This document shows positions 38,061 to 54,517 of a stretch of 64,000 nt of DNA, in pieces. Under the pieces are notes generated by a model. It saw nothing but the letters and a program-made list of their open reading frames with translations. It ran no database searches and was not told where the DNA came from. Source of the stretch: an uncultured Lachnospiraceae bacterium. Its GTDB lineage: Bacteria; Bacillota; Clostridia; Lachnospirales; Lachnospiraceae. A program made the translations under genes and the position numbers. The stretch lies in the NCBI GenBank assembly GCA_947631685.1, contig CANRMI010000009.1, positions 41,462 through 105,461 on the forward strand. The letters run 5' to 3'. How positions within the stretch are numbered: position 1 is the stretch's first letter; each line of letters begins with the position of its first letter.

Positions 38061-39494
38061 TTATACATTGATAACGGCCTTCACGCCCAAAAGCGCTTTG
38101 TTTTCCTCCAATATGGGTGCGATCACGTTCTTTAGGAACACTTCCGTCTGCTCCTTTGCCCGTCCGATATAGCGGGCAGGCTCCATGCTGTTTTGCAGCT
38201 CCTCCAGAGAAAGCTTGAACGCCGGATCCGCCGCTATCAGCTCTAACAGATTATTCTCTTTCCCCTCCTCCTTGACGGTCTTTCCCGCCTCCATGGAGAG
38301 TTCACGGATCCTTTCATGCAGCTCCTGCCTGTCTCCGCCGGCCTTCACCGCGTCCATCATAATGTTCTCGGTAGCCATAAAAGGCAGCTCGCTCAGCATA
38401 TGCTTTTCGATGACTTTCGGATACACTACCAGTCCGTCCGCCACGTTCAGGCACAGATCCAGGATACCGTCCACTGCCAGAAAGCCCTCCGGAATGGAAA
38501 GCCGCTTGTTGGCAGAATCGTCCAGGGTTCTCTCAAACCACTGGGTTGCGGAGGTAATGGCCGGATTGAGGGCATCGATCATCACATAGCGGCTCAAAGA
38601 AGCAATCCTTTCGCTTCTCATGGGGTTGCGCTTATAGGCCATGGCGGAAGAACCTATCTGGCTCTTTTCAAAGGGCTCCTCCACTTCCTTTAAATGCTGC
38701 AGCAGCCGGATGTCGTTGCTCATCTTATGGGCGGACGCCGCAATACCCGCCAATACGTTCATCACTCTGGTATCCACCTTCCTGGAGTAGGTCTGTCCGG
38801 ATACGGGATAGCATTCCTTAAATCCCATTTTCTGCGCGATCATGGGATCGATCTTATCGATCTTCTCCTGGTTCCCGTCAAAGAGCTCCAGAAAAGAAGC
38901 CTGCGTGCCCGTGGTGCCTTTGGAGCCCAGCAGCTTCATGGTAGAGAGCACATAATTTAAGTCCTCCAGATCCAGGGAAAACTCCTGCAGCCAGAGAGTG
39001 GCCCTCTTGCCTACGGTAGTGGGCTGGGCGGGCTGGAAATGAGTGAAAGCCAGCGTAGGCTGGGCCTTGTATTTTTCGGCAAAATCCGCCAGCGCCGCCA
39101 TGACGTTCACCAGTTTTTTCTTTACCAGCTTCAAAGCCTCCGTCATCACGATAATGTCGGTATTGTCGCCCACATAGCAGGAGGTGGCTCCCAGATGGAT
39201 AATGCCCTTGGCTTTCGGGCACTGTACGCCGTAAGCGTAGACATGGCTCATGACATCATGGCGCACTTCCTTTTCCCTGGCCTTTGCCACGTCATAGTTG
39301 ATGTCCTCCGCATGGGCCTTTAACTCCTCGATCTGCTCATCCGTAATGGGCAGCCCAAGCTCTTTTTCCGTTTCCGCCAGCGCGATCCACAGCTTTCTCC
39401 AGGTTCTGAATTTCATGTCCGGTGAAAAAATATACTGCATCTCCTTACTGGCGTAGCGCTCCGATAGAGGACTCTGATATACGTCTGTACTCAT
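38061..39494 (-). CDS. purB: Adenylosuccinate lyase
   Basis: MSTDVYQSPLSERYASKEMQYIFSPDMKFRTWRKLWIALAETEKELGL...; SSAMAYKRNPMRSERI signature. Confidence 0.97.
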   Translation of the reverse strand: MSTDVYQSPLSERYASKEMQYIFSPDMKFRTWRKLWIALAETEKELGLPITDEQIEELKAHAEDINYDVAKAREKEVRHDVMSHVYAYGVQCPKAKGIIHLGATSCYVGDNTDIIVMTEALKLVKKKLVNVMAALADFAEKYKAQPTLAFTHFQPAQPTTVGKRATLWLQEFSLDLEDLNYVLSTMKLLGSKGTTGTQASFLELFDGNQEKIDKIDPMIAQKMGFKECYPVSGQTYSRKVDTRVMNVLAGIAASAHKMSNDIRLLQHLKEVEEPFEKSQIGSSAMAYKRNPMRSERIASLSRYVMIDALNPAITSATQWFERTLDDSANKRLSIPEGFLAVDGILDLCLNVADGLVVYPKVIEKHMLSELPFMATENIMMDAVKAGGDRQELHERIRELSMEAGKTVKEEGKENNLLELIAADPAFKLSLEELQNSMEPARYIGRAKEQTEVFLKNVIAPILEENKALLGVKAVINV

Positions 39495-39537
39495 AAAATA
39501 ACCGTACCTTTCCAATTTTTATTGATCCGTTGATCGA

Positions 39538-40986
39538 TCAGGCTTCAAATTCTCCCCGAATATCTTCCGCGGGCGGCTCCATGGGATATTTCCCCGTAAA
39601 GCATCCCCTGCATATATCCAGGCCGTTTACGATCTCCTGCAGGCGCTCCTGCCGCAGATACGCCAGGCTGTCGGCTCCGATGATCCCGCGGATATCTTCC
39701 ACGCTCCGGTTGTACGCAATTAACTGCTCCCTGGCCGGCACATCCGTTCCAAAGTAGCAGGGCCACAAAAAGGGCGGCGAGCTGACACGCATATGTACTT
39801 CCTTCGCGCCCGCTTCCCGCAGCATCCGTACAATGCGGTCCGAAGTGGTTCCCCTGACAATGGAATCGTCGATCATGATGATCCGCTTTCCTGCCACCGG
39901 TTCCCTGATCGCGTTTAATTTGACCTGCACACTGCTCTCCCGGCTCTTCTGCCCCGGCTTGATAAAGGTTCTGCCCACATAGGCATTTTTTACAAAGGCG
40001 GTACCGTAAGGTATCCCCGACTCCATGGCATAGCCCATGGCGGCGCAGTTGCCGGATTCCGGCACGCCCACTACCATGTCCGCCTCCACAGGGGAATCCA
40101 TAGCCAGATATTTTCCCGCCAGAATACGGGAATGATATACGCTTTCTCCGTCAATATAGCTGTCCGGTCTCGCGAAATAAATATACTCAAACACACAGCG
40201 CGCGGTCTTTTCACCCTTTAAGGCATGGGACATATCGGACTCGATCCCCTTTTCCGGAGAGATCGTTACGATCTCGCCCGGCTGCACGTCCCGTACAAAA
40301 GTGGCGCCAACGGTATCCAGCGCGCAGCTTTCGCTGGCCAACAGATAGGTATTGTCCCTTTTTCCGATGCACAAGGGCCTGAATCCGAAGGGATCCCTCG
40401 CGCCGATCAATTTGCGGGGAGACATAATGACCAGGGAATAGGCGCCTTTGATCTTATGCATGGCCCTCCCCACGGCTTCCTCCACCGTTTTGGAATTTAA
40501 ACGCTCCCTGGCGATATGATAGGCAATGACCTCGGAGTCAATGGTGGTCTGAAAGATAGCGCCGGTATACTCCAGTTCATGCCTAAGCTGCGGCGCATTG
40601 ATGAGATTGCCGTTATGCGCCAGTCCCAGCGTGCCTTTCACATAATTCAGTACCAGCGGCTGGGCATTTTCCCTGGTGGAACTGCCGGCGGTAGAATAGC
40701 GCACATGTCCTACCCCGATATCCCCCTTCAGTTTCCCGATGATCTCCGCGTTAAAAGCCTCGTTTACCAGCCCCATGTCCTTGTGGCTCAACACTTTTCC
40801 CTTGGGGCCCGCCGTGTCGCTGACCGCGATCCCGCAGCTCTCCTGGCCTCTGTGCTGCAAAGCCAGCAGACCGTAATAAATGGTGGAAGCCACGTTTCCG
40901 CCGTCTAAGTCATAGGCACCGAAAACGCCGCACTCCTCCCGCAGTTTGTCCTGATTTTCCGTCTGTATGTAAATTTCTTCTTTCAT
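39538..40986 (-). CDS. purF: Amidophosphoribosyltransferase
   Basis: 482 aa; REECGVFGAYDLDGG, GVPESGNCAAMGYAMESGIPYG, IIMIDDSIVRGTTSDRIVRMLREAGAKEVHMRVSSPP. Confidence 0.97.
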   Translation of the reverse strand: MKEEIYIQTENQDKLREECGVFGAYDLDGGNVASTIYYGLLALQHRGQESCGIAVSDTAGPKGKVLSHKDMGLVNEAFNAEIIGKLKGDIGVGHVRYSTAGSSTRENAQPLVLNYVKGTLGLAHNGNLINAPQLRHELEYTGAIFQTTIDSEVIAYHIARERLNSKTVEEAVGRAMHKIKGAYSLVIMSPRKLIGARDPFGFRPLCIGKRDNTYLLASESCALDTVGATFVRDVQPGEIVTISPEKGIESDMSHALKGEKTARCVFEYIYFARPDSYIDGESVYHSRILAGKYLAMDSPVEADMVVGVPESGNCAAMGYAMESGIPYGTAFVKNAYVGRTFIKPGQKSRESSVQVKLNAIREPVAGKRIIMIDDSIVRGTTSDRIVRMLREAGAKEVHMRVSSPPFLWPCYFGTDVPAREQLIAYNRSVEDIRGIIGADSLAYLRQERLQEIVNGLDICRGCFTGKYPMEPPAEDIRGEFEA

Positions 40987-41001
40987 TTTATGCCAGTCCC
41001 G

Positions 41002-41709
41002 TTATGCCAATCCCAAACGCTTGAACACCTCGTTGTAAGCCTCTTCCACATTTCCCAGATCCCTGCGGAAGCGGTCCTTATCCAGCTTCTCATTGGTATT
41101 TACATCCCACAGCCGGCAGGTGTCAGGAGAGGTCTCATCCGCCAGAATGATCTGTCCATGGTAACGGCCGAACTCGATCTTAAAGTCGATCAGTTTAATG
41201 CCGGCTTGTAAAAAGTAAGCCTTTAATACCTCATTTACCTTAAAGGCATATTTCTTGATGGTTTCGATCTCTTCCCAGGTAGCCAGATTCAGCGCCCTGG
41301 CAAAATAATCGTTGATGAGAGGATCGCCCAGAGCATCGTTTTTGTAGGAAAATTCCACAGTGGGCTCTTCAAAGGGAGTTCCCTCCGGCACGCCCAGACG
41401 CTTGGAAAAGCTGCCTGCCGCGACATTGCGGATGATCACCTCCAAGGGAACGATCTCCACCTTCTTTACCGCGGTCTCCCTGTCGCTTAATTCCTCAATG
41501 AAATGAGTCGGAACACCTTCTTTTTCCAGCAGCTTGAACACATGGTTTGTCATTTTGTTGTTGATAACACCCTTGCCGACGATAGTGCCTTTCTTTTCGC
41601 CGTTAAAAGCGGTAGCGTCATCCTTGTAGTCCACGATCAGCACGTCGGGATCGTCCGTCTTGAATACCTTTTTTGCCTTTCCTTCATAAAGCTGTTCCAG
41701 TTTTTTCAT
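41002..41709 (-). CDS. purC: Phosphoribosylaminoimidazolesuccinocarboxamide synthase
   Basis: 235 aa; [56 protein letters not shown]. Confidence 0.97.
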
Positions 41710-41784: not shown

Positions 41785-41813
41785 ATCATATACCACGTTT
41801 TTTGTAAAATCAA
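41785..41813 (-). promoter_or_regulatory. sigma-A type promoter for the pur cluster, overlapping the stop codon of the upstream gene
   Basis: Minus strand TTGATT-N17-TATGAT; the TGA stop of the 41810-42994 gene lies within the -35 hexamer. Confidence 0.6.
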
Positions 41814-42994
41814 TACGACTTTTCGTACCGTTCCACCAGGGCGGTGATCTCCGCCGCGTACTGGGGATACTCCGCCACCGCCGCCTTGATCTCCTCTCCC
41901 GCAGTTTCCTCCAGCTTCCGGTTGTAGTCCATCTGTTTGCGCAGAGCCTGCCGTCTGATGATCAATCCATGCCGGATCTCCACCATTTCCCGGCTGTCCA
42001 GAAGTGCCGCCGGCGACGCCGTCCACCTATCCGGATCCTTTACCCGGTACCGTGTCAAAAGCTCCCTGAGCTGTTCCCTGTAGTAGTCCAGCTTGGCGTC
42101 CGCCTCCGCGAACTGCCGCCTTTCTTCCTTTTCCTCCTGATACAGCTCCCACTTGTCCTTCAACGCGGCCGCGCTCTCCACCCCGTACTTCATATACAGG
42201 TAGTCCAGCAGATGGGTATTGTTCACATACCGGATCTTCACCCTGTTCTGCAGCAGGATCAGTTTGTTGACCGAATTAGTCAATCTGTCCAGTTCCCGAT
42301 CCGCATCCGTGTATTTGATGAAAATAACGGTTATGGCAATCGCCGCGGCGGCTACGGAAAGGTAATACCCCACGGCCGTATCCAGGTGAAAGCCAAACTG
42401 CAAAAGCAGCAGCATCAGGATGCAGGCGCCCAGCGCGGTCAGGCAGATAACAGCCATCCCTCTCAGATTGACCAGCATAGTACTCAACTCGCTTCTGCGG
42501 TAAGCGTAAGCATGCCTTTCCCCGTCCAGCCGGTTGAGATCCTGCTTTACCAGCTTTTGATACTTCTCGGCCTCCTGGAGCTTGGCAAGGCCCTCCTCCG
42601 CTTCCCTCTCCACGGAGCGCATCTGCCGGTATTCACTGTCGGTAAGATGCCTTTCCTTATCCAGATAGCGGTTTCGCTCCTGATTGAGTGCCGTCATTTT
42701 CCCTGCCACGGTCTTTACTTCCCGCATCTGCTCCTCCGGCAGGGCCTCGATCTCTTCCATATCCGTCAGATACCCTGTCACCAGGTTGTACTCTCCGCTT
42801 AAAAGCTCCAGCTCCCGCTCGGCCTCCTTGATCTGCTCCAGACAGGTTTCCAGATAACGGTTTCGTTCTTCGGCGTCACGAAAATTGATCCTGTCCCGCT
42901 CGCAGGTAATCTCCTCCCAGTCTTCTTCCGGCTCAGGCGCTTTTCTATTCTTTTTTCTAAAAAGCCAGTTCCAAAATTTATCAGCCATTGACAT
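41810..42994 (-). CDS. Coiled-coil protein with two central TM helices, unknown function
   Basis: 394 aa; heptad-like charged regions flanking LRGMAVICLTALGACILMLLLLQFGFHLDTAVGYYLSVAAAAIAITVIFIKY. Confidence 0.75.
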   Translation of the reverse strand: MSMADKFWNWLFRKKNRKAPEPEEDWEEITCERDRINFRDAEERNRYLETCLEQIKEAERELELLSGEYNLVTGYLTDMEEIEALPEEQMREVKTVAGKMTALNQERNRYLDKERHLTDSEYRQMRSVEREAEEGLAKLQEAEKYQKLVKQDLNRLDGERHAYAYRRSELSTMLVNLRGMAVICLTALGACILMLLLLQFGFHLDTAVGYYLSVAAAAIAITVIFIKYTDADRELDRLTNSVNKLILLQNRVKIRYVNNTHLLDYLYMKYGVESAAALKDKWELYQEEKEERRQFAEADAKLDYYREQLRELLTRYRVKDPDRWTASPAALLDSREMVEIRHGLIIRRQALRKQMDYNRKLEETAGEEIKAAVAEYPQYAAEITALVERYEKSY

Positions 42995-43811
42995 TTTCCC
43001 TATAGCGGTTTTTCAGTTCCCTCACTTTTCTGTCCGTTTCCTCGTAGTAGAGCGGATCTCCTTCTTCCTTCATCCGGCGCCTCTCTTCCAGCCACTGCTT
43101 AGGCTCCGACTCCTCCCATTCCTCCGAAAGAGCTTGTACCCGCCTTTCCAGCTCCAGTGTCATATCATAATGTTCTCCCAGGCCGGAAACAAAGGAAACA
43201 TACTCTCCCTCCGGCATATACATCCGTTTGGCAGCCAGATAAGCGATAAAGCTCTCCTCCCCGCCATCCAGTTCATAGGCCTGCAAAAACCACGCTGCCG
43301 CTTCCTCAAACAAAAACAGGCCGCAGAGGGCGGTTCCCTTGTTATGCAGGATCCCGGCTCTCAGCTTTGTTTCCTTTTCGGGCAGCCGGCTCATCAGCGC
43401 GTCATATTCTATCACAGCCGGTGTGTATTTGCCGCATTCTACCATATGGTCTATCCTGGTTTTTAACTTTTCATAGGCGTTCAGTCCCATGCCCTGCAGG
43501 TAGATCGATTCTGTCCGCTCCACCTCTTCTTCCGCATAGAGGCCCGTATAGGACAATATCACCCTCACAAAAGCTCCCACGGAGGTTCCGTTGTGCAAAA
43601 GGGGCGCCAGCATGGAGGCCAGCTCCTGGAGCCTTAACACCTCGCCGATCCATTTTACCAGCCGCTTATCCAGAATCTCCCTGTCTATTAAAAAGGCATT
43701 TTCCCTCAGCACATAGCAAAGCTCTTCCACGGAATATACCCGTATCCCCAGATTATCGAAACAGTATGGAATTACCGCGCATTCGCCTGTTTGCAGAAGT
43801 ATCCGTCCCAC
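42981..43811 (-). CDS. TPR-like/alpha-helical protein of unknown function
   Basis: 276 aa; NKGTALCGLFLFEEAAAWFLQAYELDGGEESFIAYLAAKRM resembles a TPR unit; GTG start shares one nucleotide with the upstream TAG. Confidence 0.75.
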   Translation of the reverse strand: MGRILLQTGECAVIPYCFDNLGIRVYSVEELCYVLRENAFLIDREILDKRLVKWIGEVLRLQELASMLAPLLHNGTSVGAFVRVILSYTGLYAEEEVERTESIYLQGMGLNAYEKLKTRIDHMVECGKYTPAVIEYDALMSRLPEKETKLRAGILHNKGTALCGLFLFEEAAAWFLQAYELDGGEESFIAYLAAKRMYMPEGEYVSFVSGLGEHYDMTLELERRVQALSEEWEESEPKQWLEERRRMKEEGDPLYYEETDRKVRELKNRYRENVNG

Positions 43812-45085
43812 TATTCCACCTCAAAACTTTCCGTCCAAACCTGATGACTGGCGGGGAAGAGTTCCCCAAAACCCATATCCTCCACGGAGAGCCGCACACA
43901 TTGCACCGCGGTCATCTGCAGCTCCATGTGGAGTCTGGAAAACGCGCCGCTTCTTGCCGGCAGTCCCTCCAATGTCACTTCAGCCAGCTTGATATCCCTG
44001 CCGTTTAAGGGGGTGATCAGCAGGGAAAAACTGTTCCCCTCCTCTAAAAGGAAATCCACGCTGCCCCGCGCCTCGTACCAGCTTGTCCCCGCGTCCAGCA
44101 GCGCGTAATAAGAGTCTTCCCCGCGGCGCTTTAACTTCATACCGATGTTGGCCTTTAATTTATCTTCTCCCAAAAATACATAGTTCTTTCCGAGTTCACT
44201 GGCAGAAAGCCTTTCCGACATACCGTAGCAGGCACCCTTGCTGTAAAGGTTGTTGCCCTGGAAAACACGTCTGCCCCGGCAAAGGAAGCGCAGGGACTCC
44301 TTCAGCCATTCTTCTGAAAAATCCTCCCCGATCAGGTACACGGAGCTAATAAGCCGTCCCTCACAGACCTTCCGCAGAAGCTTCAGAAACCGCCCGTCCA
44401 GCTGTTTATAGAGGCTTTCCCGCAGGGATTCCTCTTCTATTCCTGCCGCCCCTGACAAAAAGGGGTATTCCTCCCTGTTCATAAAAGCTACCACGGGTGT
44501 GGTATGCCGATTGCATTCCATGCAGAAAAAACGCATCCTCTCCCCTGCGTAGTCGCAGACCAATACCTGCTGCTGCCACAGCTCCTGCGGCTGGCGGATG
44601 GTATAATGGAAAAAGCTTTCCAAATGGCTCTGGTAGCTTACCGTCGCCGTTTTCAGCGCCAAACCCGCTGTCACGGCGTCCAGCACCTCCACCATCCTGG
44701 CATCCAGCTCCTCGCAGGTAAACATGAGGGCCGCGATCCTTTCCGGAGAGGAGATCATATTCAACAGGCTGAGGCTCCTCTTTACAAAAAGCGTCAGCAG
44801 CGCCACCGGATCATATTCTTCCCCGTCTAATTCCACCGGCTCCCCGCTCCTTGCAGCCTCCACCAGATTCTTAGCAAGGATCCCTTCCTCCGCGTGTTTT
44901 AAGGCATCTCTGCCATAAAACCACTGGCTTACCCCCTGCCGCTTGCACAGTGCCGTGGGAATGCTGTAAGCCTGCGCGCCCGCTACCGTAGACAGTGTTT
45001 CCGGCTCACTGTTTTCATATGTGCAATAGCTGATCTGGGAAAAAATGTTTCCCAGATCATATCCTATGATCAGCTTTTCTTTCAT
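43811..45085 (-). CDS. Hsp70/actin-fold-like protein of unknown function (possibly the family called DUF5716)
   Basis: 424 aa; N-terminal LIIGYDLGNIFSQISYCTY resembles the phosphate-1 motif; C-terminal VYLIGEDFSEEWLKESLRFLCRGRRVFQGNNLYSKGACYGM resembles the Hsp70 connect-2/adenosine region. Family number recalled, not checked. Confidence 0.7.
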   Translation of the reverse strand: MKEKLIIGYDLGNIFSQISYCTYENSEPETLSTVAGAQAYSIPTALCKRQGVSQWFYGRDALKHAEEGILAKNLVEAARSGEPVELDGEEYDPVALLTLFVKRSLSLLNMISSPERIAALMFTCEELDARMVEVLDAVTAGLALKTATVSYQSHLESFFHYTIRQPQELWQQQVLVCDYAGERMRFFCMECNRHTTPVVAFMNREEYPFLSGAAGIEEESLRESLYKQLDGRFLKLLRKVCEGRLISSVYLIGEDFSEEWLKESLRFLCRGRRVFQGNNLYSKGACYGMSERLSASELGKNYVFLGEDKLKANIGMKLKRRGEDSYYALLDAGTSWYEARGSVDFLLEEGNSFSLLITPLNGRDIKLAEVTLEGLPARSGAFSRLHMELQMTAVQCVRLSVEDMGFGELFPASHQVWTESFEVE

Positions 45086-45100
45086 GAGCCCCTTCCCCCG

Positions 45101-48100
45101 TTACCGCAGTCCGAACAGACCGTTTTTCATGTATTCTGTACGCTCATACTCTTCCAGCAGCTTATCCACCGTATCATAATCCTGCAGCGTGTTGCTGATA
45201 CAGATGTCGTTGATCAGATAAAACTTGCTTTCCAGATTCCAGCCTCCCACATCGCTCTTCTGTATGGAGGCGCTCTCGGTCAGCTGTTCGCTGCCTCCCT
45301 GTTCCTCCACAATATAGTACTGCAGGCTTTCTCCAAAAAACAGTACAAATTCCTTGAAGCACACCCCGCCTATAGTTTCCCGCATTTCCTCCGTCAGATA
45401 CTCCGGCTCTCCGCTTTCCGAAGTCTCTATGCAGTAATGGAGAATGGCTCTTGCTTCCGGATGCGCCCTATATTCCACAATGGTTCTGTCGGAAAGCTGG
45501 TTGATCCTGGAATCCCGCATATCCTTAAACTCGGTAAACATCTTTAAGAAAATGCGCTCCTCCAGCAGTTCCCTGATGAACTGCCGGACGATCTCCCCTC
45601 TCTCCTCCGTCAGCCGGCTCTTATTTTCCGCATAAAATTTCACATAAGCCAGCTTACATACCTGTTTCATTTCACTGCCCTGCCGGCAGCGCTCCGTGAT
45701 CACGTCAAAAGCGTATTCATCCGTTACCCTGTCCTTGACAAAATATTCATAAGAGCACTGGGCCAGAAAAGCCTCCTCTACCTCATCTCCTCCGCCCTCT
45801 TTGACATAGGTGCGGAAAATATCCATCTTTTCACCTACAAAAGAGCCGGTAAAGAGCATCTGTATGAGCAGCCGCTCGCACAGCGTTCTGCAGGGTTCCC
45901 CGAACGCGCAGGCCGCTTTGTAAATATCCCGCATATCCCTGGTAATCCCCTGATAATACATAATGAGGTACTGCAGCCCTTTTTCGTCGTATTTGCCCCG
46001 CTTAAAGGCATACATTACCGCTTCCGTCAGAACGCCGTCTTCCGCGAATTCCCACTCCTGGATCAGCCGGGAGCAAAGTCTTACCAGAATCTTGGGCTCC
46101 ATTCCAAAGGGGCCGTATCTGGTCAGCCATTCCAGAGCTTTTTCCTTCTGTCCCCTGATCACCAGCAGTCTGAACAGCTCTGCCCGTTCCGATACCGGAT
46201 ACCCCTCCGGCTTTATCCGTTCCAGGCATTCATCCAGCTCCTGCAGCCTGTCGTTTTCATAATAGTACTGCAGCAGTTTCCTGCTGATATTCCGTCTCAG
46301 ATCCTCCTGCAGCTCCTTTTCCTCCAGAAGGCTTCCAAAGCGCAGTTCATTTTCTCCGGTGATCTCTGCCGGTTCCTCCCCGCTTAGGCATATGTTGATA
46401 TTTAAGTCCCTGTTGTTGTAAACCATGGGGGCGGTCAGCTTCATCAGCTTTCCGGGAAGGATCAGCTTTTCTATGGTATAGGGAACCCCCGTCATGTAGC
46501 GGTTTTTGGCACCGTCCTCAAAGAGCAGTCTGCTTTCCGGCGAAGGCAGGGACACCAGCACCCGTCCGTCCGTTACGGGATAGCGGGTTTCCCCCGTAAA
46601 TCCCGCCTGACAGACAATGGCGTACCGGATGTCTCCCGCGGATATTTCCACCAGGTTCATGAACAAAAGCCCGCCCAGGGCTTCCGCCATCTGCGGCGTC
46701 ATCATCTGCTCTGTCAGTATATTTTTGTACAGATACGCCAGGTCCCGGTTGATCCGTCCCTTCAGTATCTGTTCTGTGACAAACTCTTCTATCCGTTCCC
46801 GGTAGTTTTCGTAAAGCTCGGGAAATTCCTCTCTATGCCTGTGCACATTGGCATAAAGAAAAGCTGCCAGCTCATAATCCAGGCTGTTCTGATAAGCAAA
46901 ATACATGAGCACCATGCGGGGCAGCGGCTCCTTCGCAGAGGTATCCACGCTCATCATATAGTGTTCGTACAGCCGCGTGATCCGAAGCCCCTCTTCTACT
47001 CCCAGCGCATACCACTGAAAATACCTGCTGCCTGTTTTGCCGCCCTTGATCAGCAGGCTGCAGAGCTCCTGGAGCACACCGGCGTCCGGCTTTGTCTCAT
47101 AGCAGGCCTTCAGTATGCGGTATACGCAGTCCGAGTACTCCCTCTCCCGCTGCACCAGATAGACAAACTGCCGCACTACATCCTCAGACAGGGCCTGGTA
47201 CCGGGCTCCGTAAGTCAGTACCTTTTTTTCAAAGTCTCCCAGTTTGATCAACAGGGCCGGATTCTGCTCCAGCAAAAGCAGGGCCTCTATGTAAAGCACC
47301 GGGCTTCTGCTGCCCCTCCCGTACTGCTCCTCTATAAACATCCACCTTTTGGAAAAGCTCTTGGTATACTCCTCTGACAGATACAGCAACAGCCAGGCTA
47401 TCCTCCACTCTTCCCGGTTGCGTTTGTGCAGATACTCCACCTGACGCGAAATCTCGTCCACATAGTCCTCTTCCCGCCGTATCAGTGTGGTAAGGTAGAG
47501 ATAATAAGCCAGCCAGACCGGCTCCTCTTCCTCCAGTCCGTCCAGAATGTCCGCAATATGATCCAGTATCCAGCGGGCCTCATTGTAGCGCTCTCCCGTG
47601 ATCAGCAGCTGGGCCTGAAACAGTCTGGCCGGTACATTGTTCTCGTCCCAGGCCGTCAGTTTCTCTACCAAAGGGGTACTCTCCCTCTGCCATACGGACG
47701 CGTTGAGCTTCTTCAGCCTAAACTGCCTGTATAACTCCATCAGGCGCAGGATCAATCCTTTCTGGTAAAGGATCTTCCTCACCCCGCTGCTTCCACGCTG
47801 GCTGACGATCACCGGGATCCTCTTCTCCCCGTATCTGTCCCAGAGCCGGACGCTGCCGTAATTATTTCCATCATGCAGGCCGTTTTCCTCCACATAGATG
47901 GACAGCCTGTAGGTATTGCCTAAGAAATCCGCTTCGGTAATGCAGGACTTCTCCACATACAGAAAGCTGCCTTCCGTTTCCACAAACAACCTGGCCGCTC
48001 CCCAGCCGTTGCGCGTTATCCGGACACAGAGTTCCTCCGTTCCCTGCACGTCCCCCAGCCGTAGTTCCTCCGTATCAGTCAGATATTCTATCTTCTGCTT

Positions 48101-48661
48101 CTTGTTGATCCCTATGAGAAATTCTTCTACATTCTGTTCATTGCCGGGTATGGCGGACAGTCCTCTGTAATAGTCATAATACTGTCTGTCCCCACCATTG
48201 AACACACTCCGGAAATCCTTGGAATAAAACAGGACCACAGCCTCCTCCGGATTGGTCTTGGCCAGATTGGCAAAATGGAACAGGTTCCGGATATTTCCCA
48301 GAGAAGAAGTCAATACTCTGTATTCTACATTGACTACGAAAGGCAGATAATACTCTCCCTGATTGCTGATGACCTGAAACTCTCCCTTGACGACTTCGCC
48401 CTCTTCCAGATCTTCTCCGTGGAAGCAGAAGCCGATCTCCTCCCTGCTGCCCAGAAATTCCCCAGTCAGGCATTCCATTCTGCTGTCAGAAGAATATACC
48501 AGGCCCTTAGTCAGCTTCCCCTCTTCTCCCAAGATGGTAAAAGAGCCCTCCAGCATCTCACCGGCGGGAACGGAAAGCTCCAATTTTGAGCATGAAAAAT
48601 CCAAGGCGCCCTTTTCATACTCCAGGTCTCCCTCCAGAATCTTATCAATGACTGTCCGCAA
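45101..48661 (-). CDS. Very large protein with beta-rich N-terminus and helical-repeat body, unknown function (possibly DUF5717)
   Basis: 1186 aa, TTG start; N-terminal repeated beta domains, body of helical hairpins (e.g. ARLFQAQLLITGERYNEARWILDHIADILDGLEEEEPVWLAYYLYLTTL). Family number recalled, not checked. Confidence 0.75.
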   Translation of the reverse strand: MRTVIDKILEGDLEYEKGALDFSCSKLELSVPAGEMLEGSFTILGEEGKLTKGLVYSSDSRMECLTGEFLGSREEIGFCFHGEDLEEGEVVKGEFQVISNQGEYYLPFVVNVEYRVLTSSLGNIRNLFHFANLAKTNPEEAVVLFYSKDFRSVFNGGDRQYYDYYRGLSAIPGNEQNVEEFLIGINKKQKIEYLTDTEELRLGDVQGTEELCVRITRNGWGAARLFVETEGSFLYVEKSCITEADFLGNTYRLSIYVEENGLHDGNNYGSVRLWDRYGEKRIPVIVSQRGSSGVRKILYQKGLILRLMELYRQFRLKKLNASVWQRESTPLVEKLTAWDENNVPARLFQAQLLITGERYNEARWILDHIADILDGLEEEEPVWLAYYLYLTTLIRREEDYVDEISRQVEYLHKRNREEWRIAWLLLYLSEEYTKSFSKRWMFIEEQYGRGSRSPVLYIEALLLLEQNPALLIKLGDFEKKVLTYGARYQALSEDVVRQFVYLVQREREYSDCVYRILKACYETKPDAGVLQELCSLLIKGGKTGSRYFQWYALGVEEGLRITRLYEHYMMSVDTSAKEPLPRMVLMYFAYQNSLDYELAAFLYANVHRHREEFPELYENYRERIEEFVTEQILKGRINRDLAYLYKNILTEQMMTPQMAEALGGLLFMNLVEISAGDIRYAIVCQAGFTGETRYPVTDGRVLVSLPSPESRLLFEDGAKNRYMTGVPYTIEKLILPGKLMKLTAPMVYNNRDLNINICLSGEEPAEITGENELRFGSLLEEKELQEDLRRNISRKLLQYYYENDRLQELDECLERIKPEGYPVSERAELFRLLVIRGQKEKALEWLTRYGPFGMEPKILVRLCSRLIQEWEFAEDGVLTEAVMYAFKRGKYDEKGLQYLIMYYQGITRDMRDIYKAACAFGEPCRTLCERLLIQMLFTGSFVGEKMDIFRTYVKEGGGDEVEEAFLAQCSYEYFVKDRVTDEYAFDVITERCRQGSEMKQVCKLAYVKFYAENKSRLTEERGEIVRQFIRELLEERIFLKMFTEFKDMRDSRINQLSDRTIVEYRAHPEARAILHYCIETSESGEPEYLTEEMRETIGGVCFKEFVLFFGESLQYYIVEEQGGSEQLTESASIQKSDVGGWNLESKFYLINDICISNTLQDYDTVDKLLEEYERTEYMKNGLFGLR

Positions 48662-48699: not shown

Positions 48700-48729
48700 A
48701 TTATACCATTTTCCCATACGGTTAGGCAA
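48700..48729 (-). promoter_or_regulatory. Promoter for the four-gene unknown locus
   Basis: Minus strand TTGCCT-N18-TATAAT with extended -10 (TGGTATAAT), about 40 nt upstream of the TTG start. Confidence 0.6.
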
Positions 48730-48829
48730 ACATATTTTACGCTTTTAAAGTTTTTTGGTACGGGATAAAGTTCCGTTTAAAAAACCTCCGCATATACTGT
48801 CTATAAAGCAGATATGCCGAGGTTATTTT

Positions 48830-50095
48830 ATGCCAGAACATTTACATGCCGCCCAGACAGGTGAAAACTCCTACAGCGGCGCCCTGCGTATCAACGTCAC
48901 TTCTTCACTGGGACAGATTCCCATTGAAGGCGCCGTGGTATCCATTTCCCCAAGCGGCGAACCGGACAATGTGGTCCAGCAGCTTTCCACCGATATTTCA
49001 GGCCTCACTCCCACCATCGAACTTCCCGCCCCCGACCTGGAATACAGTCTGGAACCGGAAAGTACCGTACAGCCCTACACCGACTATGATATTTCCATAA
49101 CCGCCCCGGGCTATGAACCCGTCATCATTACCGGCACCGAACTGCTGCCGGAAGTGACCGCCATACAGCCCGTCCGCATGAATCCCCTGGAAATTACGGA
49201 AGAAGACGCCAAGCTGGTAGACATTCCCGCCCACACGCTCTGGGGTACCTATCCCGCCAAAATACCGGAAGCGGAGGTAAAGCCCCTTCCTGACAGCGGG
49301 GAGATCGTCTTAAGCAGAGTCGTCATACCGGAGTACGTGGTGGTCCACAACGGCGCCCCCACAGACAGAAGCGCCACCAATTACTGGGTAAGGTATACCG
49401 ACTACATCAAAAATGTAGCCTCTTCGGAAATTTACGCCACCTGGCCGGAAGCTACTATCTACGCCAATATCCTGGCGATCATGTCCTTTACGCTAAACAG
49501 AGTATATACGGAATTCTACCGGAACCAGGGTTATAATTTTACCATCACCAGCTCCACAGCCTACGACCAGAAATGGATCTACGGCCGCAACACCTATGAA
49601 AACATCGACAGGCTGGTGGATACCATTTTTGTAAACTACCTTTCCCGTCCCGGCGTGCGGCAGCCCATTTTTACTTCCTACTGCGACGGACAGCGGGTGA
49701 CCTGCAACGGCTTAAGTCAATGGGGCTCCAAATATCTGGGGGACAGAGGATACTCCGCCATTGAGATCCTGCGCTATTACTACGGCAGCAGCATGTTTAT
49801 CAATACTGCCGACAGTGTTTCGGGCGTACCCTCTTCCTGGCCCGGCTACAACCTGACCATCGGCTCTTCCGGAGAAAAGGTCCGCCAGCTGCAGCAGCAG
49901 TTAAACCGGATCGCCCAGAACTATCCCGCCATTCCCACTCTCATAGCGGATGGCATATACGGCTCCCGTACCGCCGAGTCCGTCAGGACCTTCCAGCGGA
50001 TCTTCGACCTTCCGCCCAACGGTATCACCGATTTCCCTACATGGTACGCCGTTTCCCGTATTTATGTAGCGGTCAGCAGGATTGCGGAACCTTAA
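48830..50095 (+). CDS. SpoIID-like domain protein with C-terminal peptidoglycan-binding domain
   Basis: MPEHLHAAQTGENSYSGALRINVTSSLGQIPIEGAVVSI...; SYCDGQRVTCNGLSQWGSKYLGDRGYSAIEILRYYYG (SpoIID-like); IGSSGEKVRQLQQQLNRIAQNYPAIPTLIADGIYGSRTAESVRTFQRIFDLPPNGITDFPTW (PG_binding_1). Confidence 0.82.
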   Translation: MPEHLHAAQTGENSYSGALRINVTSSLGQIPIEGAVVSISPSGEPDNVVQQLSTDISGLTPTIELPAPDLEYSLEPESTVQPYTDYDISITAPGYEPVIITGTELLPEVTAIQPVRMNPLEITEEDAKLVDIPAHTLWGTYPAKIPEAEVKPLPDSGEIVLSRVVIPEYVVVHNGAPTDRSATNYWVRYTDYIKNVASSEIYATWPEATIYANILAIMSFTLNRVYTEFYRNQGYNFTITSSTAYDQKWIYGRNTYENIDRLVDTIFVNYLSRPGVRQPIFTSYCDGQRVTCNGLSQWGSKYLGDRGYSAIEILRYYYGSSMFINTADSVSGVPSSWPGYNLTIGSSGEKVRQLQQQLNRIAQNYPAIPTLIADGIYGSRTAESVRTFQRIFDLPPNGITDFPTWYAVSRIYVAVSRIAEP

Positions 50096-52426: not shown

Positions 52427-54517
52427 CTATTTTGCCAAAAGCAGCATGATCTCATTGCTTCTGGCGATAAATTTGGTCATGTCCTCCGAACTTAAAGGCG
52501 CGTGCTGCAGCTTCGCCAGGTCGTAGAGCTGCTCGCATATCATCTGCACATGCTCACCGTCCTGATGCTCCGTTACATACTGTACCAGGGGATGGTTGGC
52601 ATTTAAGATCAGCGTCTCGCCCTCGGAGCCGAAATCTCCCATTCCCATTCCGTTCATAGAGTACATCTTCATCATATCCTGCATCCGGCGGCTTTCCTCA
52701 GAAAGAGTCAGCAGGGAAGAAATTTTCTTATTCTTTAACTTCTCCACTTTCACTTCCAGCTTCTCTTTCTTCAGAGCCTTCTTCATCAGCTTGGCGATCT
52801 CCTCCGCCTGAGCCTGCATCTCCTCGGCCGCCTTCTTGGAGGTTTTGGATCTGAAGGTATCCGTCAGATCCGCGTCGATCCTCTGGAACTTAATGCCCTC
52901 GTTCTTGGACTCCAGCTGGGAAATAAAGGGCTGGTCAATATTGTGAGTCAGGATCACGGCATCCATTTTGGCAGCCCTGAACATGTTGATATACTGGCTC
53001 TGCTGCTGCTCGTCCGTCACGTAATAAATGGTCTTCTCTTTCTTTTCCTCCTGGCCGTCTTCCGCGGTATCTTCCGTGGTATCCTCTCCGGCTTCTTTCT
53101 CTTCGCCGGTCACCACTTCCGCTTCTACCTTGTTGCCGCTCTCATCCACAGCGTTCTCTTCTTCCCCGTCGGTATCCGTCCTGTTGATCTCCAGGCATTC
53201 CGGCAGCGTCATATATACGCCGTCCAGGTTCTTAAAGAGAATATAATCCGTCATCTTCTCGCAGAATTTATCATCCTTTAAGCAGCCGAATTTAATAAAC
53301 GGGCTTATGTCGTCCCAGTATTTCTCGTACTCTTCCTTCTCCGTCTTGCACATTCCGGCCAGCTTGTCCGCCACCTTCTTGCTGATGTAATCAGAGATCT
53401 TCTTTACAAAGCCGTCGTTCTGCAGCGCGCTTCTGGATACATTCAGCGGCAGATCCGGGCAGTCGATGACGCCCTTTAAGAGCATCAGAAATTCCGGGAT
53501 GACTTCCTTGATATTGTCCGCGATAAAGACCTGGTTGTTGTAAAGCTTGATGACGCCCTCTATGGATTCGTATTCCATATTGATCTTGGGGAAATACAGA
53601 ATACCCTTTAAATTAAAGGGATAATCCATGTTCAGATGGATCCAGAAAAGAGGCTCCTTGTAATCCTGGAATACCTTTCTGTAAAACTCTAAATATTCCT
53701 CTTTGGCGCACTCGCTGGGATTCTTCATCCAAAGAGGATGGGTATTGTTTAAAAGCTCGGGGCGCTTTACGATCTTTAATTTTTCCGGATCGCCTTCCTT
53801 TTCAGGCGCGATCGTCTCCACTACGGTGTCGGTATCCAGCTTTTCTTCCGCCTTAATAGTCTGGGTATCCTTAGTGTCCGCCTTGCTTAAATAAATTTCC
53901 GTAGGCATAAAGGAGCAGTACTTTTTGATAACCTCTTCCGCCTTGTACTCATTGCAGAACTCCAGACAGTCGTCCATTAAGTACAAAGTGATGGTGGTGC
54001 CGACTTCCTTCCTGTCTCCGTCCTCCATGGAAAATTCCGTACCGCCGTCGCATTCCCAGTGTACGGGCTTTGCGCCCTCTTTGTAGGAGAGGGTGTCGAT
54101 ATGCACTTCTTCTGCCACCATAAACGCGGAATAAAAGCCCAGTCCAAAATGGCCGATGATCTGATCCGCGTTGCTCTTGTCCTTATATTTCTCCAGGAAA
54201 TCCGCCGCGCCTGAAAAAGCGATCTGATTGATGTACTCCTCCACTTCCTCCGCCGTCATGCCCAGCCCGTTGTCCTGAAACGTCAGGGTTTTCTTTTCCG
54301 GATCCACGATCACGTCTATCCTTGCCTTGTAATCCTCCGGCAGGGTATACTCTCCCATCATATCCAGCTTCTTTAATTTTGTAATGGCGTCGCAGCCATT
54401 GGAGATCAATTCCCTGTAGAAAATATCATGGTCGGAATAGAGCCATTTCTTGATGATCGGGAAAATATTTTCACTGTTGATTGATAAACTGCCTGTTTTT
54501 GCTGCCATAATATCCAC
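52427..54517 (-). CDS. htpG: Molecular chaperone HtpG (Hsp90 family)
   Basis: 696 aa; LYSDHDIFYRELISNGCDAITKLKKL, QDNGLGMTAEEVEEYINQIAFSGAADFLEKY, IIGHFGLGFYSAFMVA; acidic insert before IYYVTD. Confidence 0.97.
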   Translation of the reverse strand: MDIMAAKTGSLSINSENIFPIIKKWLYSDHDIFYRELISNGCDAITKLKKLDMMGEYTLPEDYKARIDVIVDPEKKTLTFQDNGLGMTAEEVEEYINQIAFSGAADFLEKYKDKSNADQIIGHFGLGFYSAFMVAEEVHIDTLSYKEGAKPVHWECDGGTEFSMEDGDRKEVGTTITLYLMDDCLEFCNEYKAEEVIKKYCSFMPTEIYLSKADTKDTQTIKAEEKLDTDTVVETIAPEKEGDPEKLKIVKRPELLNNTHPLWMKNPSECAKEEYLEFYRKVFQDYKEPLFWIHLNMDYPFNLKGILYFPKINMEYESIEGVIKLYNNQVFIADNIKEVIPEFLMLLKGVIDCPDLPLNVSRSALQNDGFVKKISDYISKKVADKLAGMCKTEKEEYEKYWDDISPFIKFGCLKDDKFCEKMTDYILFKNLDGVYMTLPECLEINRTDTDGEEENAVDESGNKVEAEVVTGEEKEAGEDTTEDTAEDGQEEKKEKTIYYVTDEQQQSQYINMFRAAKMDAVILTHNIDQPFISQLESKNEGIKFQRIDADLTDTFRSKTSKKAAEEMQAQAEEIAKLMKKALKKEKLEVKVEKLKNKKISSLLTLSEESRRMQDMMKMYSMNGMGMGDFGSEGETLILNANHPLVQYVTEHQDGEHVQMICEQLYDLAKLQHAPLSSEDMTKFIARSNEIMLLLAK

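Follow-up and report, generated by a model that had tools for sequence, protein, structure and literature searches.

A degenerate Hsp70 encoded at a near-universal locus of the Lachnospiraceae and its relationship to an expanded Hsp70/GrpE/vWA operon in sister families

Four consecutive genes in a 64,000-nucleotide stretch of DNA from an uncultured Lachnospiraceae bacterium (the whole stretch is referred to here as the window) encode proteins that resembled no named pathway when the sequence was read alone. This reading had proposed a membrane-tethered, ATP-dependent assembly or client-handling complex that includes an actin- or Hsp70-like protein. No match to a characterised system was found in the libraries and papers that were searched, and the locus was identified through its expanded form in related families, which includes several Hsp70 genes, a GrpE domain and a von Willebrand factor A (vWA) domain.

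Organisation of the locus

The open reading frames of the window confirmed four consecutive genes on the minus strand and the junctions between them, namely a 15-nt gap between genes 1 and 2, a one-base overlap (TAGTG) between genes 2 and 3 and a 14-nt overlap between genes 3 and 4. The features are listed below.

Gene 1: 45101-48661, minus strand, 1186 aa, TTG start, DUF5717_N and DUF5717
Gene 2: 43811-45085, minus strand, 424 aa, DUF5716, a likely pseudo-Hsp70 made up of a nucleotide-binding domain (NBD) and a lidless β substrate-binding domain (SBD-β)
Gene 3: 42981-43811, minus strand, 276 aa, GTG start, conserved N-terminal domain and shortened TPR region
Gene 4: 41810-42994, minus strand, 394 aa, coiled coil, two transmembrane (TM) helices, coiled coil
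Promoter-like site: 48700-48729, minus strand, TTGCCT-N18-TATAAT with TG before the -10 box, a consensus match only

The sequence AAGGTGAG lies directly ahead of the TTG start of gene 1. Transcription of all four genes from one promoter had been suggested, and the proposed site is present, reading from 48729 to 48700, but a promoter scan alone was not significant (5 sites versus 4.9 expected by chance). TTGC-N17/18-TATAAT-like boxes were also found 5′ of gene 1 in several relatives. Inspection for the CIRCE heat-shock operator found none, and heat-shock control was rejected on this basis.

On the downstream side, a valS gene follows in the same orientation in ten loci from the window's family and in three of the expanded loci described below. 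Upstream, a divergent class I/II aminotransferase gene was found in ten loci of the family and in one expanded locus. The genes beyond gene 3 or gene 4 differ between loci, indicating that the unit ends there. The flanking genes were considered as a clue to function and discounted: valS, the aminotransferase gene and purine genes are seen repeatedly, but the genes past the end of the unit vary. In the window, purine genes lie immediately downstream (38061-41709, minus strand; SAICAR synthetase identified using Pfam, purF- and purB-like genes by eye), and similar genes follow the locus in several relatives. The divergent gene at 48755-50095 (plus strand) encodes a protein with a peptidoglycan-binding domain and weak similarity to SpoIID/LytB, and homologues were present in the locus flanks of a few genomes (L049, L068, L075 and L085/L098). 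An HtpG-like Hsp90 gene (52427-54517, minus strand; Pfam HSP90, E=2e-61) is located approximately 4 kb upstream of the locus. Its proximity was also dropped as a clue, because an HtpG homologue was found near the locus in just one other examined genome (L076).

Family names and distribution

Searches against Pfam bore out the names DUF5716 and DUF5717 suggested in the sequence-only reading. Gene 1 matched DUF5717_N (E=2e-300) and DUF5717 (E=3e-97) and gene 2 matched DUF5716_C (E=2e-102), all above the curated cut-offs. Only sub-threshold TPR matches were obtained with gene 3, and gene 4 had no match in Pfam or the PDB. NCBIfam contained no family for any of the four genes. The names DUF5716 and DUF5717 carry no function, and no published description of either was found in a literature search limited to open-licence papers.

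The predicted spread of the locus through the Lachnospiraceae was also correct. Genes 1 and 2 were each present in 117 of 120 genomes of this family and gene 3 in 116, while gene 4 was found in 53 (44%). Hence, the expectation that the four genes would occur together held for genes 1-3, which are near-universal, but not for gene 4. Of the 116 genomes containing both gene 2 and gene 3, 115 have them as same-strand neighbours, and in the single exception they were on different contigs. Genes 1-3 were jointly missing from two genomes (G029 and G091), gene 2 was found without detectable genes 1, 3 or 4 beside it in one 67%-complete genome (L153, G020 C1), and in one family genome gene 1 sits at a contig edge. 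The Pfam scores for genes 1 and 2 and the conservation of genes 1-3 across the family indicate that the genes are real.

Neither gene 1 nor gene 2 was found in 14 control genomes. In a class-wide scan, the DUF5717 C-terminal model matched only within the window's family, though it is too insensitive to detect the forms found in sister families. No gene 1 homologues were found on plasmids. Four unannotated faecal contigs labelled 'Bacteriophage sp.' (GenBank accession numbers MT835486.1, MT835988.1, MT837190.1 and MT835719.1) include gene 1 homologues, and the one that was viewed carries an UNVERIFIED flag. These contigs are probably bacterial chromosome.

Gene 2 as a pseudo-Hsp70

The predicted model of gene 2 (pLDDT 90.8, pTM 0.88) consists of an actin-like NBD followed by an SBD-β. 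When it was compared with the PDB, the 50 best matches listed were all Hsp70s, with full-length Hsp70s throughout the list and TM-scores of 0.44-0.59 by query length. The best match was the DnaK structure 2v7y (E=1.8e-20), and Ssz1 and Sse1 were also among those listed. The gene 2 family profile reached DnaK sequences at 2e-5. A search of a viral fold library returned Hsp70 homologues from giant viruses and plant viruses as top matches, which adds support for the Hsp70 fold only. The earlier description of gene 2 as having actin/Hsp70-like ends was thus right about the fold, but the resemblance to Hsp70 extends across the full length and the protein is not an actin. The alternative raised with it, that gene 2 is an actin/FtsA/MreB-type cytoskeletal or division ATPase with membrane partners, draws on the actin fold of the Hsp70 ATPase domain and on secondary MreB matches of related proteins (below), but it is extremely unlikely and was rejected, given the full SBD-β, the exclusively Hsp70 structural matches listed, the missing ATPase motifs and the absence of gene 4 from over half of the genomes.

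The motifs of gene 2 were compared with those of the canonical DnaK encoded elsewhere in the same genome. In the alignment, the catalytic Lys (Lys70), the GGGT phosphate-2 loop and the catalytic Glu (Glu171) are lost. The phosphate-1 Asp is retained in 97% of sequences and the Gly of the adenosine motif is kept as a G-x-GF remnant. The full set of ATP-hydrolysis motifs (phosphate-1, phosphate-2, Lys70, Glu171 and adenosine) is therefore not present. There is also no α-helical lid (SBD-α), and the protein stops after the SBD-β. In Hsp70s, lobe IIB forms one wall of the nucleotide cleft. The region corresponding to it (DnaK residues ~191-265) had an occupancy of 0-8% across most of the stretch in gene 2, and the spacing from the phosphate-2 to the adenosine motif was 70 residues compared with 142 in DnaK.

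The Hsp70 ancestry of gene 2 is strongly supported, and ancestry together with a pseudo-enzyme state is very likely the correct reading. Judged from its motifs, gene 2 should hydrolyse no ATP, and the ATP dependence proposed for the complex is unlikely in view of the loss of the catalytic Lys, the GGGT loop, the catalytic Glu and lobe IIB. Retention of the phosphate-1 Asp means that nucleotide could still bind. In an alignment read by eye, the residues that arch over the Hsp70 peptide cleft appear unconserved, which suggests that the SBD-β may be occupied by a fixed partner rather than by clients.

Partners encoded by genes 1, 3 and 4

The proposal that gene 1 consists of β domains followed by a helical solenoid was borne out by its predicted model (pLDDT 86.7, pTM 0.57). 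Two N-terminal β domains (~17-124 and 190-288) resembling tandem Ig/ASH/FNIII domains in Foldseek are followed by a TPR/HAT-like superhelix (292-665 and 737-1056) that is interrupted by a β insert, and then by a C-terminal β domain (1060-1134); the Foldseek TM-scores were low and indicate fold class only. PDB sequence searches with the gene 1 and gene 4 profiles returned nothing useful.

Gene 3 has a conserved N-terminal domain of about 115 aa and a TPR region that is shorter than in the sister-family form (380-390 aa), where the orthologue is a clear TPR protein in Pfam. Genes 2 and 3 are fused in frame in two separate lineages, with at least two origins on the gene 1 tree, for which the sister-family sequences were chosen as the root. 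This repeated fusion supports a direct partnership of the two proteins. Gene 4 includes two TM helices within ~170-230, flanked by coiled coils. The suggestion of a membrane tether is consistent with these helices, but tethering would be optional at best, and membrane anchoring was rejected as a core feature because gene 4 was found in only 53 of the 120 genomes.

An expanded operon in sister families

In other families of the Lachnospirales, a longer operon was found in the fixed order g1-A-X-B-C-D-g3-(g4), where g1, g3 and g4 are the counterparts of genes 1, 3 and 4, with median gaps of 2.5-23 nt. Here, g1 is usually split in two (~390 and 900 aa). Counts of adjacent pairs were 50 for B-C, 47 for X-B, 46 for C-D, 44 for A-X and 42 for D-g3, and they include some loci twice where whole-genome and named records overlap and so do not represent independent genomes. 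Among named organisms, the operon occurs for example in Defluviitalea phaphyphila, Defluviitaleaceae MAGs and Petrocella. Paralogue C was found in 56 of 146 genomes of the order. Its carriers span 13 families, and the 15 genomes of the window's family in this sample all lack it. With the order scan as a positive control, it was absent from 243 genomes of the class and 348 of the phylum outside the order.

Matches to Pfam HSP70 were obtained in the sister operon with E-values of 5e-76, 7e-63 and 4.5e-96, the last of these proteins also matching VWA. A, C and D are Hsp70s with catalytic motifs, the key residues being 97-100% kept in 43, 68 and 59 sequences, respectively, and they have secondary Pfam matches to MreB. 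B has lost the catalytic Lys, the GGGT loop and the Glu and kept the phosphate-1 Asp, relative to the DnaK of the same genome. The lid is missing from A, B and C, and in D a vWA domain occupies the lid position, with its metal-site motifs intact in 54 of 55 sequences. X carries a C-terminal GrpE head domain (Pfam GrpE, E=3e-13; PDB 4ani_A, 8.8e-7). All genes between g1 and g3/g4 were accounted for, and none encodes a GTPase, GAP1 or effector. No J-domain was detected by Pfam or motif in the operon proteins of the window or the sister families. With its vWA-fused Hsp70, the sister-family operon appears to be a bacterial Hsp70 system that has not been described before.

Some loci depart from this arrangement. 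In L079 (G122), the sister form nearest to the window's family, D and g3 are each present as two ORFs and X, at 279 aa, is short, reflecting either decay or an assembly error. In some Defluviitaleaceae and related MAGs (L118, L119, L123, L124, L127, L138 and L147), mainly C and D were found, with insertions of unrelated genes among or beside them.

Relationship between the two forms

B matched both DUF5716_C (1.5e-26) and HSP70 (1.4e-17) and so provides a sequence link between gene 2 and Hsp70. Gene 2 also grouped with B in a tree, with L079 as the nearest sister form, and on this sequence evidence gene 2 is the counterpart of B. The order g1-[A-X]-B-[C-D]-g3-(g4) in the sister families thus corresponds to g1-gene 2-g3-(g4) in the window's family, and the valS gene downstream and aminotransferase gene upstream that are common to both forms indicate that they occupy the same site. 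The window's family has the scaffold gene 1, the degenerate Hsp70 gene 2 and the TPR gene 3 at the locus, with gene 4 in under half of the genomes.

Most likely, the window's family has lost A, X, C and D, with parsimony and gene order pointing to loss, not gain. The lobe IIB stretch was kept in B, where the phosphate-2 to adenosine spacing is 143 residues, and is gone from gene 2. As GrpE acts on lobe IIB of the NBD (PMC10825016), its loss from gene 2 fits the loss of X. On balance, the locus is probably the reduced descendant of a dedicated Hsp70 machine that may now serve as an ATP-independent client-binding scaffold.

Possible function and comparison with known systems

Ssz1 of the yeast ribosome-associated complex (RAC) is, like gene 2, a lidless Hsp70 with an SBD-β, and it acts in a complex; it binds but does not hydrolyse ATP and holds substrate with low affinity in its SBD-β (PMC7083937). 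However, Ssz1 pairs with the J-protein Zuo1 at the ribosome, whereas the window locus has no J-domain, the partners of gene 2 are a TPR protein and a giant β/superhelix protein, and gene 2 also lacks lobe IIB. The two presumably arose independently. By analogy, the SBD-β of gene 2 would bind an extended stretch of polypeptide, from a client or a partner, without an ATP cycle, with gene 3 as its direct partner, gene 1 as the platform of the complex and gene 4, where present, holding it at the membrane. That the proteins form a complex we infer from the findings above, and a client-binding scaffold may well be its function, though this assignment is tentative.

Gene 2 could instead still bind ATP or ADP without hydrolysis and act as a nucleotide-sensing switch within the complex. 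The conserved phosphate-1 Asp, the adenosine-motif remnant and the precedent of Ssz1 (PMC7083937) are consistent with such a role, but the missing lobe IIB and the lost phosphate-2 loop and catalytic Lys make it unlikely. In a second alternative, the complex would be a relay co-chaperone that hands clients to the DnaK of the cell, as RAC hands nascent chains to Ssb. A canonical DnaK is available in the same genome, and in RAC, a solved precedent, a lidless Hsp70 that does not hydrolyse ATP feeds an active Hsp70 (PMC7083937). With no J-domain in the operon proteins there is no evident means of stimulating DnaK and no heat-shock operator was seen, and a relay appears quite unlikely.

Among described gene sets, the closest is the HSP70/GrpE theme of the GAP1-N2 GTPase-centred neighbourhoods (Kaur et al. 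2020), in which HSP70 and GrpE occur with another, degenerate HSP70 and with a β-sandwich protein fused to TPR or DnaJ (PMC7159879). The Hsp70, GrpE, vWA, TPR and Ig-like domains of the sister operon recall this theme, and the locus might on this comparison be involved in conflict or immunity, either directly or as a domesticated relative of such a system. However, it has no GTPase, GAP1 or effector, the sister operon has four Hsp70 paralogues with vWA fused to one of them, and the distribution is that of a vertically inherited core-genome locus in one order, near-universal and single-copy with recurrent flanking genes. None of the four window proteins matched a PADLOC family. A defence system was rejected on the PADLOC result and the missing GTPase, and the immunity explanation as a whole is very unlikely.

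Two further Hsp70 systems have some features in common with the operon. Features shared with the DnaK-DnaJ-GrpE machine are the Hsp70 active-site motifs of A, C and D and the GrpE head domain of X, but the sister operon has four paralogues, no J-protein and no lids, and the locus in the window's family is predicted to encode no active ATPase. HscC is a specialised bacterial Hsp70 that is thought to be active at the plasma membrane without GrpE, together with the membrane-anchored DjlB/DjlC (PMC8215388). Unlike gene 2, HscC has a lid, uses J-proteins and has kept most of the residues for binding and hydrolysing ATP.

Significance

The present analysis connects DUF5716/DUF5717 with Hsp70 and with an Hsp70/GrpE/vWA operon. 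DUF5716 and DUF5717 are near-core gene markers of one of the commonest gut families, and their placement gives them an ancestry and a biochemistry that can be tested. It is quite possible that the whole family has exchanged a multi-motor Hsp70 machine for its own pseudo-enzyme, working as a stand-alone, ATP-independent chaperone or assembly complex. If this is true, the sister families keep a version of the machine with four Hsp70s, GrpE and vWA that is itself undescribed. The active form in the sister families and the pseudo-enzyme form in the Lachnospiraceae would then form a natural experiment, in which one can ask what parts of such a machine still matter without the ATPase cycle.
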